64,000 bases of DNA from Roseobacter sp. MH60115 (GTDB lineage Bacteria; Pseudomonadota; Alphaproteobacteria; Rhodobacterales; Rhodobacteraceae). Shown here piece by piece: positions 35,308 to 45,690 of this stretch. Positions within the stretch are counted from its first letter, which is position 1. Each line of letters begins with the position of its first letter. A model generated the notes under the pieces. That model saw nothing but the letters and a program-made list of their open reading frames with translations, ran no database searches and was not told the origin of the DNA. A program made the position numbers and the translations under genes. The DNA lies in the NCBI RefSeq assembly GCF_015644665.1, contig NZ_JADOBQ010000004.1:193501-257500 (forward strand). The letters are read 5' to 3'.

Positions 35308-36457
35308 GGATTGGGAAGCAGGCGGTTTCGGACTTTACCTGCACTGGCCCTATTGCGAGGCCAAATGCCCCTACTGCGATTTCAACAGCCATGTGTCGCG
35401 GCAGATTGACCACGCCGCCTGGTGCGATGCCTATCTGAAAGAATTGGACCGCGCCGCATCGGAAACGCATGGCCGCGTCCTGCGGTCGGTGTTTTTCGGC
35501 GGCGGCACCCCCAGCCTCATGCAGCCAGAAACGGTGGGCCGGATCATCGAAAAGATTCACAGCCTGTGGCCCGTGGCAAATGATCTGGAGATCACACTGG
35601 AGGCAAATCCGGGATCGGTCGAGGCAGGTAAGTTCCGTGCCTTTCGCGACGCGGGTGTCAATCGCATCTCCATGGGCGTGCAGGCCCTGAACAATGCAGA
35701 TCTGAAGCGTCTCGGGCGTATTCATACCGCTGATGAGGCGATGAAGGCCTTTGACATCGCGCGCGCCACCTTCGACCGGGTCAGTTTTGATCTGATTTAC
35801 GCGCGGCAGGGTCAGTCGCTGGCGGACTGGCGCGCAGAACTTGAACAAGCACTGTCCATGGCGGTTGATCACCTGTCGCTCTACCAATTGACGGTCGAGC
35901 AAGGCACCGCCTTTGGGGATCGTTACAACGCGGGCAAGCTGCGCGGGTTGCCGGATGAGGATTTGGGCGCAGACCTCTTTGCGATGACGCAAGACATCTG
36001 TGGCGCGCATGGGTTGCCTGCCTACGAGGTGTCCAACCACGCGCGGGACGGCGCGCAATCGCGGCACAATCTGATCTACTGGCGTTACGGCGACTATGTG
36101 GGCATCGGTCCCGGCGCCCATGGCCGTTTGACATTGGAAGGACAACGCTGGGCAACGGAATGCGTCTCCAACCCGAACCGTTGGCTTGAAGATGTCGCCA
36201 AGACAACGCCGGAGAAGCGCAGAACACCCTTATCCGCATCCGATCAGGCAAGCGAATTCCTCCTGATGGGCTTACGCCTGAAAGAAGGGGTCAGCCTGAA
36301 CCGTTTCGCGCAATTGAATGGCCGAGGTTTGGCACCTGAAAAGCTTCAGGACCTCGAAGAACTGGGTATGATCTCAGTAAGAGGTGAAAATTTAATCGTT
36401 TCAAATCAAGGGTTTATGGTTTTGAACGCTGTGATTGAAAACCTGCTGCAGACTTAA
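35300..36457 (+). CDS. hemW: Radical SAM protein HemW (heme chaperone)
   Basis: 385 residues if the TTG at 35300 is the start, which aligns the protein with relatives beginning xAEDWxxGGFGLYLHWP; another TTG at 35288 adds four codons. The radical SAM cluster motif is C-x3-C-x2-C (YCEAKCPYC). Later motifs FFGGGTPSLM and GVQALNNADLKRLGR are typical. Formerly called oxygen-independent coproporphyrinogen III oxidase-like; the class is now thought to insert heme. No ATG start is available without losing conserved residues. Confidence 0.88.
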   Translation: MAEDWEAGGFGLYLHWPYCEAKCPYCDFNSHVSRQIDHAAWCDAYLKELDRAASETHGRVLRSVFFGGGTPSLMQPETVGRIIEKIHSLWPVANDLEITLEANPGSVEAGKFRAFRDAGVNRISMGVQALNNADLKRLGRIHTADEAMKAFDIARATFDRVSFDLIYARQGQSLADWRAELEQALSMAVDHLSLYQLTVEQGTAFGDRYNAGKLRGLPDEDLGADLFAMTQDICGAHGLPAYEVSNHARDGAQSRHNLIYWRYGDYVGIGPGAHGRLTLEGQRWATECVSNPNRWLEDVAKTTPEKRRTPLSASDQASEFLLMGLRLKEGVSLNRFAQLNGRGLAPEKLQDLEELGMISVRGENLIVSNQGFMVLNAVIENLLQT

Positions 36458-37353
36458 GACCCACTGAGAATGCGGCAAAGCTCGTCCAGGTCATCCAACG
36501 ATTTGTAGTGCAGTGTCATCTGACCGGATTCCTGACCCGGCTTGTGCGACAGAACCACCTTCATCCCGAGCGTCGCGGAAAGATCACCTTCCAGCGCCTT
36601 GGTGTCCGCATCCTTCGCCTCTTTCATCGGCTTCGCTTCAGGCGTTCCAAAACTGTTCTCGCCACCCGCCGCCTGCTTTTTCACCAAAGCTTCGGCCGCC
36701 CGCACCGACAGACCACCTTTCACAATCATCTGCGCCAGCTTCAGCGGATCGTCCGCCGGGATCAACGCGCGGGCATGACCCGAGCTCAACTCTCCCTTGC
36801 GGACCATCTCCAGCACGGCTTCCGGCAGGTTCAGCAAGCGCAGCAGATTGGCGATATGACTGCGGCTCTTACCCAAGGCTTCGGCCATCTTTTCCTGGGT
36901 GTGGCCAAACCGATCCATCAGTTGACGGTACCCCGCCGCCTCTTCAATTGGGTTCAGATCGGCCCGCTGAATGTTCTCGATGATGGCAACTTCGAGCACT
37001 TCGACATCGGTGAAGTCCCGCACCACCACCGGCAGCTCATGCAGCTTGGCCATCTGCGACGCTCGCCAGCGGCGCTCGCCCGCCACGATCTCGTAACGAT
37101 CATCCCCCACGGCCCGCACGATCAATGGCTGAATGACGCCTTTCTCCTTGATGGAAGCCGCAAGATCATCCAGATCGCCCTCCGCAAAACGTTTACGCGG
37201 CTGATCCGGGTTGGGCGCAATCTGTTCAATCGGGATCAGACGCTCAGCCGCCGACGGTCCCGCACTGGTCGCTTTCTCCGTCTCCGCCACATCCGACATC
37301 AAGGCCGACAGACCCCGTCCAAGGCCCCTTTTGCGATCCGCTCCACCTGCCAT
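36454..37353 (-). CDS. parB: Chromosome-partitioning protein ParB
   Basis: 299 residues. N-terminal GLGRGLSALM, then the ParB/Srx CTP-binding domain with PNPDQPRKRF and the GERRWRAS motif, then the helix-turn-helix (TQEKMAEALGKSRSHIANLLRLL) that reads parS, and a C-terminal dimerisation domain. ParB loads at parS, spreads as a CTP-dependent clamp and works with ParA in origin segregation. Two perfect parS sites lie 1.4 and 3.3 kb away. Its end overlaps the hemW end. Confidence 0.96.
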   Translation of the reverse strand: MAGGADRKRGLGRGLSALMSDVAETEKATSAGPSAAERLIPIEQIAPNPDQPRKRFAEGDLDDLAASIKEKGVIQPLIVRAVGDDRYEIVAGERRWRASQMAKLHELPVVVRDFTDVEVLEVAIIENIQRADLNPIEEAAGYRQLMDRFGHTQEKMAEALGKSRSHIANLLRLLNLPEAVLEMVRKGELSSGHARALIPADDPLKLAQMIVKGGLSVRAAEALVKKQAAGGENSFGTPEAKPMKEAKDADTKALEGDLSATLGMKVVLSHKPGQESGQMTLHYKSLDDLDELCRILSGS

Positions 37354-37362
37354 GTCAGCCCC

Positions 37363-38172
37363 CTATGCCACTTTTTCGCTATTTCTGCTCAAAACTTCCC
37401 GCGCAAGCGCCCGGTAGGCCTGCGCCCCCTTGGATGCGGTGTCGTAGGTCAGGACCGGCATCGCAAAAGACGGTGCTTCGCTCACCCGCACATTCCGCGG
37501 AATTCGAGTGGAAAACACCAATTCCCCCAGATTGTCCCGCGCATCCTGTTCCACCTGTAGGGACAGGTTGTTGCGTCTGTCATACATGGTCAACACAACA
37601 CCTTCGATCCGCAAGTCTTTATTGCCACTCTGCCGAACCTCTCGAATGGTCAGCATCAGCTGGGACAATCCCTCCAATGCGAAGAACTCACTTTGCAATG
37701 GCACCAACACCGAATCCGCCGCGATCATTGCATTCACCGTCAGCAGATTCAGCGACGGTGGGCAATCAATGAGGATATAGTCCAGCTCAAATACATCCAT
37801 AGCCGTCTGGCGCAGGGCGTCATGCAGCAGAAAACTACGCTTTTCGTTCGAAATCAGCTCAATATCAGCAGAACTCAGGTCAACGGTCGCCGGCACGATC
37901 ATCAACCCCGGCGTCACTGTGGGCAAAACAACAGACTTGAGGTCGACATCCTCCAGCAGAAGCTCATATGTGGTGAACTCACGATCCCCCAGCTCAATGC
38001 CCAGGCCGGTAGACGCATTCCCCTGCGGATCGAGGTCAACAACAAGGACCCTTTTGCCCGCCTCCGCCAATGCGGCGGCAAGATTGATGGTGGTTGTCGT
38101 TTTGCCAACCCCGCCCTTCTGGTTCGCAACCGCAATGATTTTCGGACCCACAGGGCGTGAAAAGTCAGACAC
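37363..38172 (-). CDS. parA: Chromosome-partitioning ATPase ParA
   Basis: 269 residues with a GTG start at 38172 that overlaps the rsmG end by 8 bp. Deviant Walker [17 protein letters not shown] near the N-terminus and Walker [15 protein letters not shown]. It binds DNA non-specifically as an ATP dimer and is released by ParB, moving the origin region. Followed by parB with a 9-bp gap. Confidence 0.96.
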
Positions 38173-38770
38173 GTTCGATTTCCCTCACCTCAAGGATGGC
38201 AGCATTTGGGTTCGTTTTGCTTGTATGGCTCACGAGGTCAAAAGACCACGCCTTACGCGCCTCATCGACCTCTTTTTGCCAAGTCTCACCCTTGAAGAAC
38301 AACGCCTGGCCTGTTGGGCTCAAATGACGATCCGCAAAAGACAACAGCGAAGACAGATCAGCAAGCGCCCGCGCAGAGAGGACATCCGCATTCAGAGGAT
38401 CAGTTTGTTCAATTCGGGAGGTGAGAACCGTCGCCGTCAGGCCCAACTCGCGTATCACTGTTCGCAGGAACGTCGCTTTGCGCATATCGCTTTCGATCAT
38501 GGTCACATGAAGCTCGGGATCCAATTCCCGCGCAATAATCGTAATGACCAACCCCGGCAAACCACCACCGCTGCCCATATCAACCCAGTTCCGGCAGATG
38601 CCAGCAAGAGGGTACATTTGTGCTGAATCCCGAATGTGTCGGTCCCAGACCTCAGCAAGGCTGGTCTTGGAAACAAGATTGATTTTGGGATTCCACTTGG
38701 TCAGAAGATCATGAAAACTGGACAGCCGATCCAATGTTTCACGTGAAACATCCAAATCCAGTACTGTCAC
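38165..38770 (-). CDS. rsmG: 16S rRNA (guanine527-N7)-methyltransferase RsmG
   Basis: 201 residues with a GTG start whose GTGA overlaps the mnmG stop. The SAM motif is [28 protein letters not shown] is the family signature. It makes m7G527 in 16S rRNA; loss gives low-level streptomycin resistance. Codons 7-12 (VSRETL) contain a perfect parS site. Confidence 0.95.
38735..38750. promoter_or_regulatory. parS site 1 (in rsmG)
   Basis: TGTTTCACGTGAAACA, a perfect 16-bp palindrome identical to the widely conserved chromosomal parS consensus. It lies in codons 7-12 of rsmG, 1.4 kb from parB. Confidence 0.93.
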
Positions 38771-40638
38771 GCAGATTGCTTTCTTTTGAGGGACCGCAAC
38801 CGAGCAAGGATGAGCGTCAATGCGGCAGGTGTCATTCCATCGATACGCGCTACCTGCGCAAGCGAACTTGGCTGCGTCGCAATGAGTTTTGCTTTTAGTT
38901 CGTTAGACAGCCCTTCCATCGCCGCGTAGTCAAAACCCTTTGGAATCAGCAGGTTTTCGTCCTTCTGCATCAATTCAATGTCTTTTTGCTGGCGCAGAAT
39001 GTAATTGGCATAGAGCGCTTCCCGCTCCATTTGCGCCCGCGTTTCGCCGTCGATCTCCCCGAAAGCAGGATCAAGATCTCCAACCTCGGAGAAACACACA
39101 TCCGGGAATGCAAGAAGCTGCATCGCTGTCCGCCTGGATCCGTCCTGGTTGATTTTGATCCCAACGGATGCGGCTTGCGAGGGCGTGAAGGTTGCGCCGG
39201 TCAGGATATCGCGTGCTTTTTCCAGTCTGTCCAACTTATGCGCAAAGGTTTTTGCCCGCGCGGCACCAACACATCCGATCTCAATCCCCAAAGGCGTCAA
39301 GCGCTGGTCTGCATTGTCCGCGCGCAATGACAGCCGGAATTCAGCGCGGGAGGTGAACATGCGGTAAGGCTCGCTGACACCGCGTGTTGTGAGATCGTCG
39401 ATCATCACCCCGATATAGCTCTGCGCCCGCGAAAACTGCAGGGGCTCCCGGCCAGATGCTCTGAGCGCTGCGTTCAGCCCGGCAACAAGCCCCTGTGCTG
39501 CCGCCTCTTCATACCCGGTTGTTCCGTTGATCTGCCCAGCCAGGTAAAGACCTGGAACCGTTGGAAGCGCGAGCGTCGCATCCAGCGCGCGCGGATCGAC
39601 GTAGTCGTATTCAATGGCATATCCCGGCTGCAGAATGACAGCTTGCTCAAGCCCGAAGATTGAGCGCACATAGTCCTCCTGCACAGCTTCCGGCAACGAC
39701 GTCGAAATACCGTTAGGATACACCGTTTGGGTGCTAAACCCTTCCGGCTCAAGAAAAATCTGATGCGAGTCTTTATCTGCAAACCGCACGATTTTGTCTT
39801 CTATGGAGGGGCAATACCGTGGGCCGATCCCATCGATATGACCGCCATACATCGCAGAGCGATCCAGATTTTCCCGAATGATATCATGGGTTTTTGCGTT
39901 TGTATGCGTGATCCCGCAGGACACCTGGCGCGCATAGGTGCCCTTTGACAGGAAGGAAAAAAGCGTTGGCTCGTCATCACCGGGTTGGTTTTCAAGATCG
40001 TCCCATCGAATTGTCTTCCCATCTAACCGTGGTGGCGTCCCGGTTTTCAGACGTCCAAGCGGCAGATCAAAGGAATCGATACGGTCCGCCAGCTTGATCG
40101 ACGCCTTTTCGCCCATGCGCCCGCCTGAGCGCGAGACATCCCCGATATGGATAACGCCCCGCAAGAACGTGCCCGTAGTGAGCACAACGGACGTTGCCTT
40201 GATCTCGCTGTCATCCTGTAGCCGGACACCGATAACACGCGGGCCATCCATCAGGAAATCAACGACCTCCGCCGTCAAAACAGTGAGATTTTGCTGCGCT
40301 TTGACTTCCGCAAGCATTTCAGTTCGGTAGATGAGCCGGTCAGATTGCGCCCTCGGGCCTTGCACCGCCGGACCCTTGCGCCGGTTGAGCAGACGAAATT
40401 GGATGCCCGCTTTATCTGCGACCCGACCCATCACACCATCAAGGGCATCAATTTCCCGCACGAGGTGGCCTTTTCCCAACCCACCAATGGCCGGGTTGCA
40501 AGACATCGCGCCGATCCCATCTTCGGATAGTGTAATCAGGGCTGTGCTTGCCCCCATGCGCGCGGATGCATGTGCGGCCTCACAGCCCGCATGCCCGCCA
40601 CCGATGATCACAACATCAAAATGTTTCACGTGAAACAC
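38767..40638 (-). CDS. mnmG: tRNA U34 carboxymethylaminomethyl-modifying enzyme MnmG
   Basis: 623 residues with a GTG start at 40638, 4 bp after the mnmE stop, giving the N-terminus (M)[17 protein letters not shown]. The FAD-binding loop [10 protein letters not shown] is next; the two MnmG signatures [15 protein letters not shown] and [17 protein letters not shown] are present. With MnmE it makes cmnm5U34 in tRNAs. The longer open frame to 40698 is upstream of the natural start. The first six codons form parS site 2. Confidence 0.95.
40622..40637. promoter_or_regulatory. parS site 2 (at the mnmG start)
   Basis: TGTTTCACGTGAAACA, identical to parS site 1 and 1,887 bp from it. It encodes residues FHVKH at the MnmG N-terminus. 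Confidence 0.93.
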
Positions 40639-43279: not shown

Positions 43280-43307
43280 ATCAGCCGCAGCACAGTTGCC
43301 GGCTGAT
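43280..43307 (-). promoter_or_regulatory. Stem-loop in the rho leader
   Basis: ATCAGCCG / CGGCTGAT, an 8-bp perfect stem with a 12-nt loop, ends 13 nt before the rho ATG. There is no T-run after it on the minus strand, so it is not a normal terminator and may affect translation or Rho loading. Confidence 0.4.
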
Positions 43308-43392
43308 GTAATTCTGGAATGTCAGGTCTGCGCCATCCCCGGACGGGGTGGTACTGGGTACATAGGCGCGCAGGCCGGGTGAGTCAATTGAT

Positions 43393-43842
43393 TCAGAACC
43401 GCACAACCACCGAGAGGACAATCAGCACCATCAGCAAGGTCGGCACTTCGTTCATCAGGCGGTATTGCCGCCCGGTCAGCTTGTTCTCGCCTCTCATGAA
43501 GTCCTTGCGTCGCAGCCCCAGCCAATGGTGAAACCATGTCATCGCCAACACGCCCGCCGTCTTGGTCCAGGGCCAGATGGCCGACCAATCGACAATCCCC
43601 GGGGTAAAGACCAGACAGAGACCCAGGATCCAGGTGGCGATCATCGCGGGGTTCATGATCACCCGCAGCAGTTTCAATTCCATGGTCTGAAAGAGATCAT
43701 GCGTCTCCCCGCTTTGTCCGACCTGCTCTGCGTGGTAGACAAAGAGGCGAGGAAGATAGAACAGACCTGCCATCCAGGCGATCACCGCCATGATGTGAAA
43801 TGCCTTCGTCCATGGATAGGCAAGAGCGAGCAGGTCCGACAT
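43393..43842 (-). CDS. hemJ: Protoporphyrinogen IX oxidase HemJ
   Basis: 149 residues from the ATG at 43842, CGGAG upstream. Four transmembrane segments: AYPWTKAFHIMAVIAWMAGLFYLPRLFVYH carries the conserved heme-liganding His and an Arg; FHHWLGLRRKDFMRGENKL and RLMNEVPTLLMVLIV follow. The family replaces HemG and HemY in most alphaproteobacteria and oxidises protoporphyrinogen before HemH. It lies next to the proposed origin on the replicating-away strand. Confidence 0.92.
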   Translation of the reverse strand: MSDLLALAYPWTKAFHIMAVIAWMAGLFYLPRLFVYHAEQVGQSGETHDLFQTMELKLLRVIMNPAMIATWILGLCLVFTPGIVDWSAIWPWTKTAGVLAMTWFHHWLGLRRKDFMRGENKLTGRQYRLMNEVPTLLMVLIVLSVVVRF

Positions 43843-43924
43843 TGAGAACTCCGATCCGTTTGCTCCTCTTATTAATAATAAAAGAAAGATAAAAGGATGA
43901 TGATTTTGTAGGGGGCGTCCTATC

Positions 43925-43933
43925 TGTGGATTA
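43925..43933 (-). promoter_or_regulatory. DnaA-box-like 9-mer
   Basis: Reads TAATCCACA on the minus strand, one mismatch from TTATNCACA, in the candidate oriC. Confidence 0.35.
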
Positions 43934-44091
43934 CGTGGTTTTACGTCCATTTATCCGCCTGGGGAGAAGAGTTTTCCTTTGAGGTTGAGAACTCAGGACG
44001 TGAGATTTAATATAATGTAATCAATGTATTGGGCTGAATTTCGACGGATTGACGGTGGGATAAGCCTGTGCATGGATCTGCCAAAACCGGC

Positions 44092-44100
44092 TTATGCATA
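44092..44100 (+). promoter_or_regulatory. DnaA-box-like 9-mer
   Basis: TTATGCATA, one mismatch from TTATNCACA, in the candidate oriC. Confidence 0.3.
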
Positions 44101-44208
44101 TCTCGCAGCTTGTCCTTTTCCGCACTGGAGCAATTCCTGCGTGAACCTGGGCTGCGCACAGGATAGCTTTTGCTTGCAGGATCACGCTGTTTTGCCCAGA
44201 AGAACATA

Positions 44209-44224
44209 TTAAGAAATCCTTAAC
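44209..44224 (+). promoter_or_regulatory. CtrA-type binding box
   Basis: TTAA-GAAATCC-TTAAC matches the CtrA consensus TTAA-N7-TTAAC exactly, 22 bp before the maf ATG and inside the candidate oriC. The palindromic halves and spacing are perfect; occupancy is not shown. Confidence 0.6.
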
Positions 44225-44237
44225 CCTGTTCACAGGT

Positions 44238-44246
44238 TTACCCACA
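44238..44246 (+). promoter_or_regulatory. DnaA-box-like 9-mer at the maf start
   Basis: TTACCCACA, one mismatch from TTATNCACA; its last base is the A of the maf ATG. Confidence 0.3.
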
Positions 44247-44845
44247 TGTCCCGCCCCCTGATCCTGGCGTCCACCTCCTCTATCAGAGCGCAGCTGCTGC
44301 GGCAGGCAGCGGTTGAATTCACCGTGGAACCCGCTCGCGTGGACGAGGAAATGATGCGCGAGGCCCTGCTGGCAGAAGACGCGCCGCCTCGGGATATTGC
44401 CGATACGTTGGCGGAAATGAAGGCGCGCAAGGTGAGTGAGAAACATCCCGATGCCTTGGTTCTGGGGTGTGATCAGGTTCTGGATCACAAGGGCACCCTG
44501 CTGGCAAAACCCGCTACGCCTGAAGAAGCGACCACGCAGCTGCGGTCCCTGCGGAACGACCGTCACATGCTGTTGTCCGCGGCGGTGATCTGTGAGGCGG
44601 GTAAACCGATCTGGCGGCATGTGGGTCAGGTTCGGTTGCGGATGCGGGACGCCTCCGACGGGTTTATCGATGGCTATGTTGCGCGGAACTGGCAGAGCAT
44701 CCAACACGCCGTCGGCGCCTATAAGCTGGAAGAGGAAGGCGTGCGGCTTTTCACCCGGATCGAAGGCGACTATTTCAATGTGCTCGGCCTGCCCCTGCTG
44801 GAATTGCTGGCATATCTGACGCTGCGCGGAGATCTTGAACAATGA
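44246..44845 (+). CDS. Maf-family nucleotide pyrophosphatase
   Basis: 199 residues. The N-terminal LASTSSIRAQLLRQA phosphate-binding motif and GCDQVLDHKGTLLAKP with the catalytic Asp are present; IEGDYFNVLGLPLLEL ends the fold. Maf proteins hydrolyse modified or canonical pyrimidine NTPs (7-methyl-GTP for the YceF branch). First gene of the maf-aroE-coaE-dnaQ run moving away from the proposed origin, with a CtrA-type box just upstream; no clear Shine-Dalgarno was seen. Confidence 0.92.
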   Translation: MSRPLILASTSSIRAQLLRQAAVEFTVEPARVDEEMMREALLAEDAPPRDIADTLAEMKARKVSEKHPDALVLGCDQVLDHKGTLLAKPATPEEATTQLRSLRNDRHMLLSAAVICEAGKPIWRHVGQVRLRMRDASDGFIDGYVARNWQSIQHAVGAYKLEEEGVRLFTRIEGDYFNVLGLPLLELLAYLTLRGDLEQ

Positions 44846-45690
44846 GCGACACTCAAAAAGCCCCGGCAAAGATTCCCCTGGCCGGGGTCATCGGCGCGCC
44901 GATTGCGCATTCCAAATCTCCGCAACTGCATCGTCACTGGCTGAACAAGCATTATGTCAGAGGCTTCTACGTGCCCATGGATGTCAGCGCGCGGGATCTG
45001 CGCGATGTGCTGATGACCCTGCCCAAGGCTGGATTTGTCGGCGTGAACGTGACCATCCCGCATAAAGAGGCGGTTCTGGACATCGCTGATCTGATCACCG
45101 ACCGCGCGACCCTAATCGGGGCGGCCAACACGCTGATTTTCCGAGAAGACGGCAAGATACATGCGGACAATACGGATGGGTATGGTTTTCTCGAAAACCT
45201 GAAAGCAGGCGCGCCCGACTGGCAGCCGACGCAGGGCCGGGCAGCACTGCTGGGGGCGGGTGGCGCTGCGCGCGCGGTAATCGCGTCTTTGCTCGAAGCA
45301 GGGGTGCCGGAAATTCTGCTCTCCAACCGCACCCGCGTCCGGGCGGAGAAACTGCAGGCGGATTTTGGCAATCGGATCACCGTCGTGGATTGGGTGCAGG
45401 CGGGCAACATGCTCGAAGACGCCAGCCTTGTGGTGAATACGTCATCCCTTGGCATGGTGGGCAAGCCGGAGATGCGGGTGCCGCTGGATGGGTTGCGCAA
45501 ATCCACCATCGTAACGGATCTCGTCTATACGCCGCTGAAAACCAGATTGCTGGAAGTCGCTGAGGAAAAGGGCTGCGTCACGGTCGATGGGCTGGGGATG
45601 TTGCTGCATCAGGCGGTGCCGGGATTTGAACGCTGGTTCGGTCCCCGCCCCGAGGTGGATGACGAAGCGCGCCAGGCGGTGCTGCGCTGA
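44842..45690 (+). CDS. aroE: Shikimate dehydrogenase
   Basis: 282 residues; NADPH-dependent reduction of 3-dehydroshikimate in aromatic amino acid synthesis. Substrate-binding S-K-S (IAHSKSPQLH), the catalytic Lys in NVTIPHKEAV, Asp in DNTDGYGF, and the cofactor loop GAGGAARAV with downstream NRT are all in place. Coupled to maf by ATGA and to coaE by a 1-base overlap (TGATG). Confidence 0.95.
   Translation: MSDTQKAPAKIPLAGVIGAPIAHSKSPQLHRHWLNKHYVRGFYVPMDVSARDLRDVLMTLPKAGFVGVNVTIPHKEAVLDIADLITDRATLIGAANTLIFREDGKIHADNTDGYGFLENLKAGAPDWQPTQGRAALLGAGGAARAVIASLLEAGVPEILLSNRTRVRAEKLQADFGNRITVVDWVQAGNMLEDASLVVNTSSLGMVGKPEMRVPLDGLRKSTIVTDLVYTPLKTRLLEVAEEKGCVTVDGLGMLLHQAVPGFERWFGPRPEVDDEARQAVLR

Follow-up and report, generated by a model that had tools for sequence, protein, structure and literature searches.

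Where on its chromosome does this Roseobacter begin replication? The window analysed here, a stretch of 64,000 nucleotides, is C14:193501-257500 of a 4.76-Mb genome in 19 contigs, and it contains a gap between the genes hemJ and maf that the sequence-only reading had put forward as a candidate oriC. Our analysis supports that proposal: the gap holds an element shared throughout the family, which recurs at the Caulobacter-type locus of other alphaproteobacteria, and within the stretches examined from three relatives the skew minima lie near maf and far from dnaA. We are nearly certain that the hemJ-maf gap is the chromosomal oriC, and the computed basis for this is position, conservation, base composition, a single profile match and the skew in stretches from relatives. 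The location is an expected one, already predicted for the family. Coordinates preceded by C14 refer to the contig and all others to the window.

A gap of near-constant length bordered by hemJ and maf

36454..38172, minus strand: parA and parB (Pfam)
38735..38750: perfect parS
40622..40637: perfect parS
43393..43842, minus strand: hemJ (UPF0093, PF03653), left flank (Pfam)
43843..44245: intergenic region hemJ/maf, 403 bp, divergent flanking genes, proposed oriC
44246..44845, plus strand: maf (PF02545), right flank (Pfam)

Pfam assignments bore out the description of a gene-free gap between divergent neighbours, and parAB and two perfect parS sites were indeed located close by, the parS sites 3-5 kb from the gap. 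The 62-codon frame inside the gap, rightly doubted before, was rejected as a gene: it has no Pfam match and stops interrupt it in 8/8 relatives compared (at codon 3 in six). Rfam returned nothing at gathering scores across 43300-44900, there are no GANTC (CcrM) sites in 43843-44252, and GATC occurs only three times in the gap.

Conservation was followed in 75 gaps, namely that of the window and those of 74 of 80 maf loci, the six loci without a detected hemJ being left out; the nearest maf matches listed are Roseobacter isolates, and records very near to the genome under study are possibly absent from that list. Gap length hardly varies in the family (383-452 bp, median 405), and the order rho, hemJ, maf, aroE is kept in 73/80 maf loci, several of the others ending at contig borders. 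In three relatives (loci L018, L034 and L040) no hemJ was detected between rho and maf, which means that the origin has there acquired yet another left border. The order rho/hemJ/maf/aroE is the part of the claimed Caulobacter arrangement that stands; hemE and ppsR do not belong to it here, which is a family trait. Their absence had been recognized: hemE lies on a different contig (C15), and a search for ppsR (PF03618) at E<=0.001 found nothing in the genome; 113/120 genomes of a family survey likewise gave no ppsR match. Since ppsR has mostly been lost in Rhodobacteraceae and this genome carries hemE at another place, hemJ and maf are left as borders. The remaining 7/120 family genomes retain ppsR.

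Elements inside the gap

43868..43897: left AT-rich tract, proposed DNA-unwinding element (stability ranking of 30-mers)
43896..43911, plus strand: conserved GATGATGATTTTGTAG, with the first DnaA-trio at its end
43912..43924: 13-bp spacer with a G/C-rich end, from first trio to box 1
43925..43933, minus strand: DnaA box 1, TAATCCACA, 1 mismatch; at most 2 mismatches in 54/75 at the aligned place
43951..43959, plus strand: DnaA-like box TTATCCGCC, 2 mismatches; 48/75 within 2
44000..44029: second AT-rich tract, next least stable in the gap
44019..44031, plus strand: IHF-like site AATCAATGTATTG, perfect match to WATCAANNNNTTR
44055..44063, minus strand: DnaA-box place of the family, 29/75 within 2 mismatches; 3 mismatches in the genome itself
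44209..44223: perfect CtrA-like TTAA-N7-TTAA, at -37 from maf
44238..44246, plus strand: terminal DnaA box TTACCCACA over the maf start codon, 1 mismatch

Both AT-rich tracts of the sequence-only reading were recovered. No 30-mer of the 64-kb window is less stable than that at 43868, which lies 27 bp from box 1; the one at 44000 ranks in the top 0.02%, and the mean stability profile of the family also has its minimum at the left tract. By sequence, an AT-rich element predicted to open is thus found beside a DnaA box.

DnaA boxes were counted by their mismatches from the consensus TTATCCACA. A cluster of them above chance is found at the hemJ-maf gap: the six boxes within 2 mismatches are the maximum per 412 bp over the whole contig (529,659 bp), a count that about 0.02% of stretches reach, and the two within 1 mismatch are also the contig maximum per 412 bp, tied with three other places. 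One of these two lies inside the gap (TAATCCACA) and the other runs over its right border into the maf ATG (TTACCCACA), so the earlier count of at least three one-mismatch 9-mers was excessive. Over the set of 75, each gap has on average 2.09 boxes within 1 mismatch, compared with 0.11 in shuffles. At five aligned places, 25 or more of the 75 sequences have a box with no more than 2 mismatches, at 43925 (54), 43951 (48), 43939 (30), 44055 (29) and 44093 (25), where the genome itself has 1, 2, 5, 3 and 7 mismatches respectively. The terminal box at the maf ATG is within 1 mismatch in 62/75 and perfect in 30 (0.03% of shuffles). Because this box covers the start codon, the last box of the origin and the translation start of maf have bases in common, and expression of maf may be gated by DnaA through it.

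The IHF-like site is the top aligned IHF window of the gap, with a mean of 7.55 of 9 positions (next 6.11, median 2.89). At least 7 of 9 positions match in 67/75 sequences and all 9 in 8/75, this genome included; a perfect match on either strand occurs in 2.5% of shuffled gaps. The single perfect CtrA box had been read correctly, yet it is the weakest piece of the oriC argument, common to only part of the family: the full site is present in 19/75 family gaps, in 14 of these at -36/-37 from maf. CtrA control was therefore rejected as a defining part of the origin and, the site being limited to a lineage, is kept merely as an option.

The left module matches once in this genome and recurs in the class

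A sequence-only profile (R1) was built from the left 100 bp of the gap, its left third, in the 74 relatives, with the window excluded. Against the genome under study it gave a single match at E<=10, at C14:237365-237459 (E 1.7e-18), in a search that scored 150 of 248 first-look candidates; after this first-look filter the genome thus has one such element. Among 142 genomes of the class, 39 matched at E<=0.01, two from the family itself and 37 from outside it.

Of the latter, 18/37 adjoin hemE, ppsR, maf, aroE or rho, 13 of them coming from 18 non-family loci given and five found via ppsR coordinates. In all 13 loci the AT tract points the same way, to the hemE or rho side, and Pfam backed the identity of ppsR in 5/5 tested. 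The other 19/37 matches have no demonstrated position at an origin locus: 5/18 loci (L189, L190, L193, L198 and L200) had no marker genes in the fetched stretch and were treated as chance matches, and 14 further genomes showed no adjacent ppsR in a listing covering part of them. The hemE-COG1806 gap is, in the portions of PMC1914354 drawn on here, the experimentally known origin of Caulobacter. A homologous element is therefore found at the hemE-ppsR gap of other alphaproteobacteria (18/37), Caulobacter itself being compared by literature; the gap studied here is not flanked by hemE and COG1806/ppsR, and it has one CtrA site where the Caulobacter type has several repressing ones.

A first trio 13 bp from box 1

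Does the left module resemble the DnaA-trio elements of other bacteria? The trinucleotide at 43909-43911 (5'-TAG-3'), read 3' to 5', is a first DnaA-trio 3'-GAT-5' placed exactly 13 bp from box 1. On the minus strand, CTA stands exactly at +13 from box 1 in 55/75 gaps and in at most 8% at the other offsets scanned (0-44), and in some relatives the spacer holds a second tandem box. In the available sections of PMC8287927 the commonest spacer is likewise 13 bp, and 3'-GAT-5' is the most frequent trio, above all nearest the box; this is what is found both in the window and in 55/75 of the family.

Beyond the first trio the likeness to the BUS rule (a box with three or more 3'-NAN-5' trios no farther than 16 bp away) ends. 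In the window the array after box 1 reads GAT GTT TTA GTA GTA, short and irregular, and the rule does not hold there, so that canonical DnaA-trios at box 1 were rejected; NAN matches of the window begin instead at the boxes at 43951 and 44092 and are directed away from the left AT tract. In the family the rule is satisfied somewhere in 92% of the 75 gaps (29% of shuffles), with 35 matches starting from the boxes at 44092/44093 and only 9 from box 1; the rule by itself thus points mainly away from box 1. Two further candidates were discarded, GATGATGAT as a row of 3'-GAT-5' trios, its polarity being wrong, and, for Rhodobacteraceae, an array of triplets in constant register, since genera differ in their register. 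The pattern C-N-A, described below, is unremarkable in the 75 gaps of the family.

A possible variant of the trio array in class origins

It was in the profile loci that the C-N-A pattern first emerged, and since these might be biased by the profile, gaps upstream of ppsR were then taken by Pfam alone. A first set of 144 genomes, 99 with a ppsR match, gave 30 loci, of which 26 were kept, one being dropped for lack of hemE within reach and three for gaps longer than 700 bp; a second set of 40 places, 34 with hemE, gave 33. The hemE-side strand carries a run of three or more C-N-A triplets in 18/26 gaps of the first set (0/26 on the other strand, 11.6% in shuffles) and in 14/33 of the second (0 on the other strand, 11.1% in shuffles), where runs of at least four occurred in 9/33 (0.8% in shuffles). 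Taken together, an array is present in 32/59 class gaps and in 0/59 on the other strand, against about 11% in shuffles; these counts ignore kinship, and some genomes belong to one genus. Some genomes had been seen earlier among the profile loci (L263, L264, L274, L277 and L290, four of them positive, and L227, positive), and their removal leaves arrays in 10/28 gaps of the second set and 17/25 of the first. A box-like core precedes the run by 8-26 bp in 17/26 (shuffles 1.9%) and 14/33 gaps (1.8%).

The middle base of the 121 trios in these 32 arrays is A in 45, T in 43, G in 33 and C in none; a local shortage of G on the box strand may account in part for the absence of C. Three consecutive canonical trios occur in 2/32 arrays, and in seven none is canonical. 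On the array strand the strict NAN rule is satisfied in 6/26 gaps (shuffles 10.8%) and 14/33 gaps (15.8%), so this rule too exceeds chance, while 24 of the 32 array-bearing gaps (24/59 class gaps) fail it. Another triplet frame could have been chosen: with runs of at least four in the first set, the shifted frame A-C-N is found in 35% of the 26 gaps compared with 23% for C-N-A, and C-N-A was retained because it includes the known 3'-GAT-5'. In this frame the arrays of class origins seem to read 3'-G[A/T/G]T-5', without the published middle A, and their strand-opening signal would then differ from the rule.

For the protein that would read these arrays, the reference was B. subtilis DnaA as found in 8btg, the BUS structure. 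When the DnaA of this genome is aligned to it, Tyr takes the place of Asn187, Val that of Ile190, Leu that of Ile193 and Lys that of Arg202, while Glu228 is unchanged. The Asn187 position holds Tyr in 20/21 and Phe in 1/21 DnaA proteins (nine from the family and twelve from other families; one of the 14 genomes queried yielded no DnaA), and Asn and Gln in 2z4r and 1l8q. As far as the consulted parts of the two papers go, the middle adenine is contacted by Asn187, and B. subtilis tolerates C at this position whereas T or G function poorly (PMC10721633); the middle base of a trio must be A (PMC6727663). A changed DnaA residue matching a changed trio base is, from these alignments, suggestive rather than proof.

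What do the arrays mean? We give close to even weight to the view that the array beside box 1 is a mere melting tract of skewed composition, unread in triplets, in which variation of the middle base has no meaning. The short, irregular array of the window, the shifts of register inside the family, the unremarkable pattern in its 75 gaps and the enrichment of canonical NAN trios in the second class set all agree with a melting tract, whereas the constancy of the outer bases around a variable middle one in 32/59 gaps on a single strand, and the fixed 13-bp step to 3'-GAT-5' in 55/75 family gaps, argue against it. Somewhat more tentatively, alphaproteobacteria might use a second DnaA-trio code, in which the outer 3'-G.T-5' is kept, the middle base is A, T or G and not C, the DnaA pocket has changed along with it, and the origin of the window has been eroded further. 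Such a code, which we regard as possible and short of probable, would be the reverse of the published rule, where the middle A is needed and the ends are free; with the same reserve, the G-holding residues would be retained in this DnaA as the basic Lys in place of Arg202, together with Glu228. The parts of PMC10225481, PMC6727663 and PMC10797057 that we could draw on, all open-licence literature, do not describe trio arrays in alphaproteobacteria, and priority is uncertain.

Promoter region, dnaA-side origin or hemJ-maf origin

The conservation of the gap could also reflect two divergent promoters, of hemJ and maf, with the DnaA and CtrA boxes serving transcription control. We consider this very improbable. 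Boxes do overlap the maf start, the CtrA-like box stands at -37 of maf in one lineage and AT-rich DNA is usual in promoters, but in other alphaproteobacteria the left module adjoins hemE and ppsR, which are different flanks, the length of the gap and the places of its boxes are nearly fixed family-wide, and an IHF-like site occupies the middle of the gap.

The cumulative GC skew had been expected to reach its minimum at the gap. The contig has two near-equal minima, one of -5242 at C14:237,228, 115 bp from the gap, and a slightly lower one of -5263 at 293,601, 8 kb from dnaA, and at four-fold sites the minimum falls between the two, at 262,915. Skew alone, ambiguous in this genome, was therefore rejected as proof of an origin. 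Between the origin and the second minimum the skew is flat over about 55 kb (C14:240000-294000), as if by a local inversion or a mixed strand bias.

In three relatives dnaA and maf lie farther apart, 118 kb in GAI101, 265 kb in SKA53 and 433 kb in Litoreibacter 2-822. Skew was computed there over 400 kb each for GAI101 and SKA53 and over 20 pieces of 20 kb across 580 kb for Litoreibacter, with a resolution of tens of kb. Within these fetched stretches the minimum lies 14 kb, 33 kb and about 25-35 kb from maf, respectively, and about 132 kb, about 298 kb and about 400 kb from dnaA; the skew of the three relatives favours hemJ-maf over dnaA. Litoreibacter 2-822 has an additional, shallower minimum.

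Many bacteria have their origin beside dnaA. That it should lie there in this genome, about 48 kb rightwards, with the hemJ-maf gap a conserved DnaA-regulated promoter region, would fit the lowest cumulative skew 8 kb from dnaA and the flat skew at 240-294 kb, but is the least credible of the readings, since C14:283-288 kb has no DnaA box within 1 mismatch, the sole R1 match of the genome is elsewhere, and in the three relatives the skew turns nearer maf. Against an oriC in the hemJ-maf gap itself stand the lowest skew of the contig near dnaA, the distance of 14-35 kb between maf and the relatives' minima, which were sought within about 400-580 kb of each, the presence of no more than one near-perfect box inside the gap, the failure of the BUS rule at box 1 and the 19/37 profile matches with no demonstrated position at an origin locus.

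A model of origin opening and its relation to known origins

For the hemJ-maf origin we propose the following order of events. DnaA would bind box 1 (43925) and the boxes rightwards of it, the last being that on the maf start, and an IHF-like bend near 44025 would fold the right-hand boxes towards the left. From box 1, DnaA would then extend across the 13-bp spacer onto the trinucleotide strand at 43896-43911 and open the AT-rich tract at 43868-43897, where the helicase would be loaded. ParAB and the parS sites, 3-7 kb away, would afterwards segregate the new origins.

In E. coli, oriC comprises an unwinding element, an inverted box (R1), an IHF site and a direct box (R4) closing its right end. 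The gap shows the same layout, with an unwinding element, an R1-like inverted box, an IHF-like site and an R4-like terminal direct box; unlike E. coli oriC, it has other flanking genes and few GATC sites.

The gap also resembles the origins of Caulobacter crescentus and Rickettsia, as far as the available parts of PMC1914354 describe them. Shared are the neighbourhood as seen in other alphaproteobacteria (rho, hemE or hemJ, maf, aroE), a length of 384-404 bp compared with 403 here, and an AT-rich tract, DnaA boxes, an IHF-like site and a CtrA-type box, and it is to this type that the profile leads by finding the left module at hemE/ppsR gaps. Compared with Caulobacter, the gap has one CtrA box instead of five and no GANTC, hemE is elsewhere and ppsR is unmatched. 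Within the family, the accessible portion of PMC4793288 (DoriC) reports oriC beside maf as conserved in Rhodobacteraceae, and that of PMC6699656 gives 101 origins predicted with Ori-Finder. These published origins, in what could be consulted of them, have the same site by maf with parAB near; they are predictions from skew, box counts and neighbour genes, whereas here internal anatomy and homology across the class are added. The BUS of Bacillus subtilis, in the portions used of PMC8287927 and PMC10721633, resembles the gap in its box, 13-bp spacer, first 3'-GAT-5' trio and AT-rich tract on that side. It differs in that box 1 here lacks three consecutive NAN trios, in the variable middle base of the 3'-G[A/T/G]T-5' arrays of class gaps, and in the Tyr or Phe that takes the place of Asn187.

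The proposed opening element can be traced by sequence through much of the class, its triplets seem to depart from the stated DnaA-trio rule, and the DnaA residue that faces the odd base differs in step. Swapping one residue and one base would thus be enough to test what makes origin opening specific, and origin-finding programs could detect the BUS elements that the NAN rule misses (24/59 class gaps). As a minor observation on the contig, its first 10 kb (C14:1-10000) are 40% G+C, compared with about 60% over most of its length.
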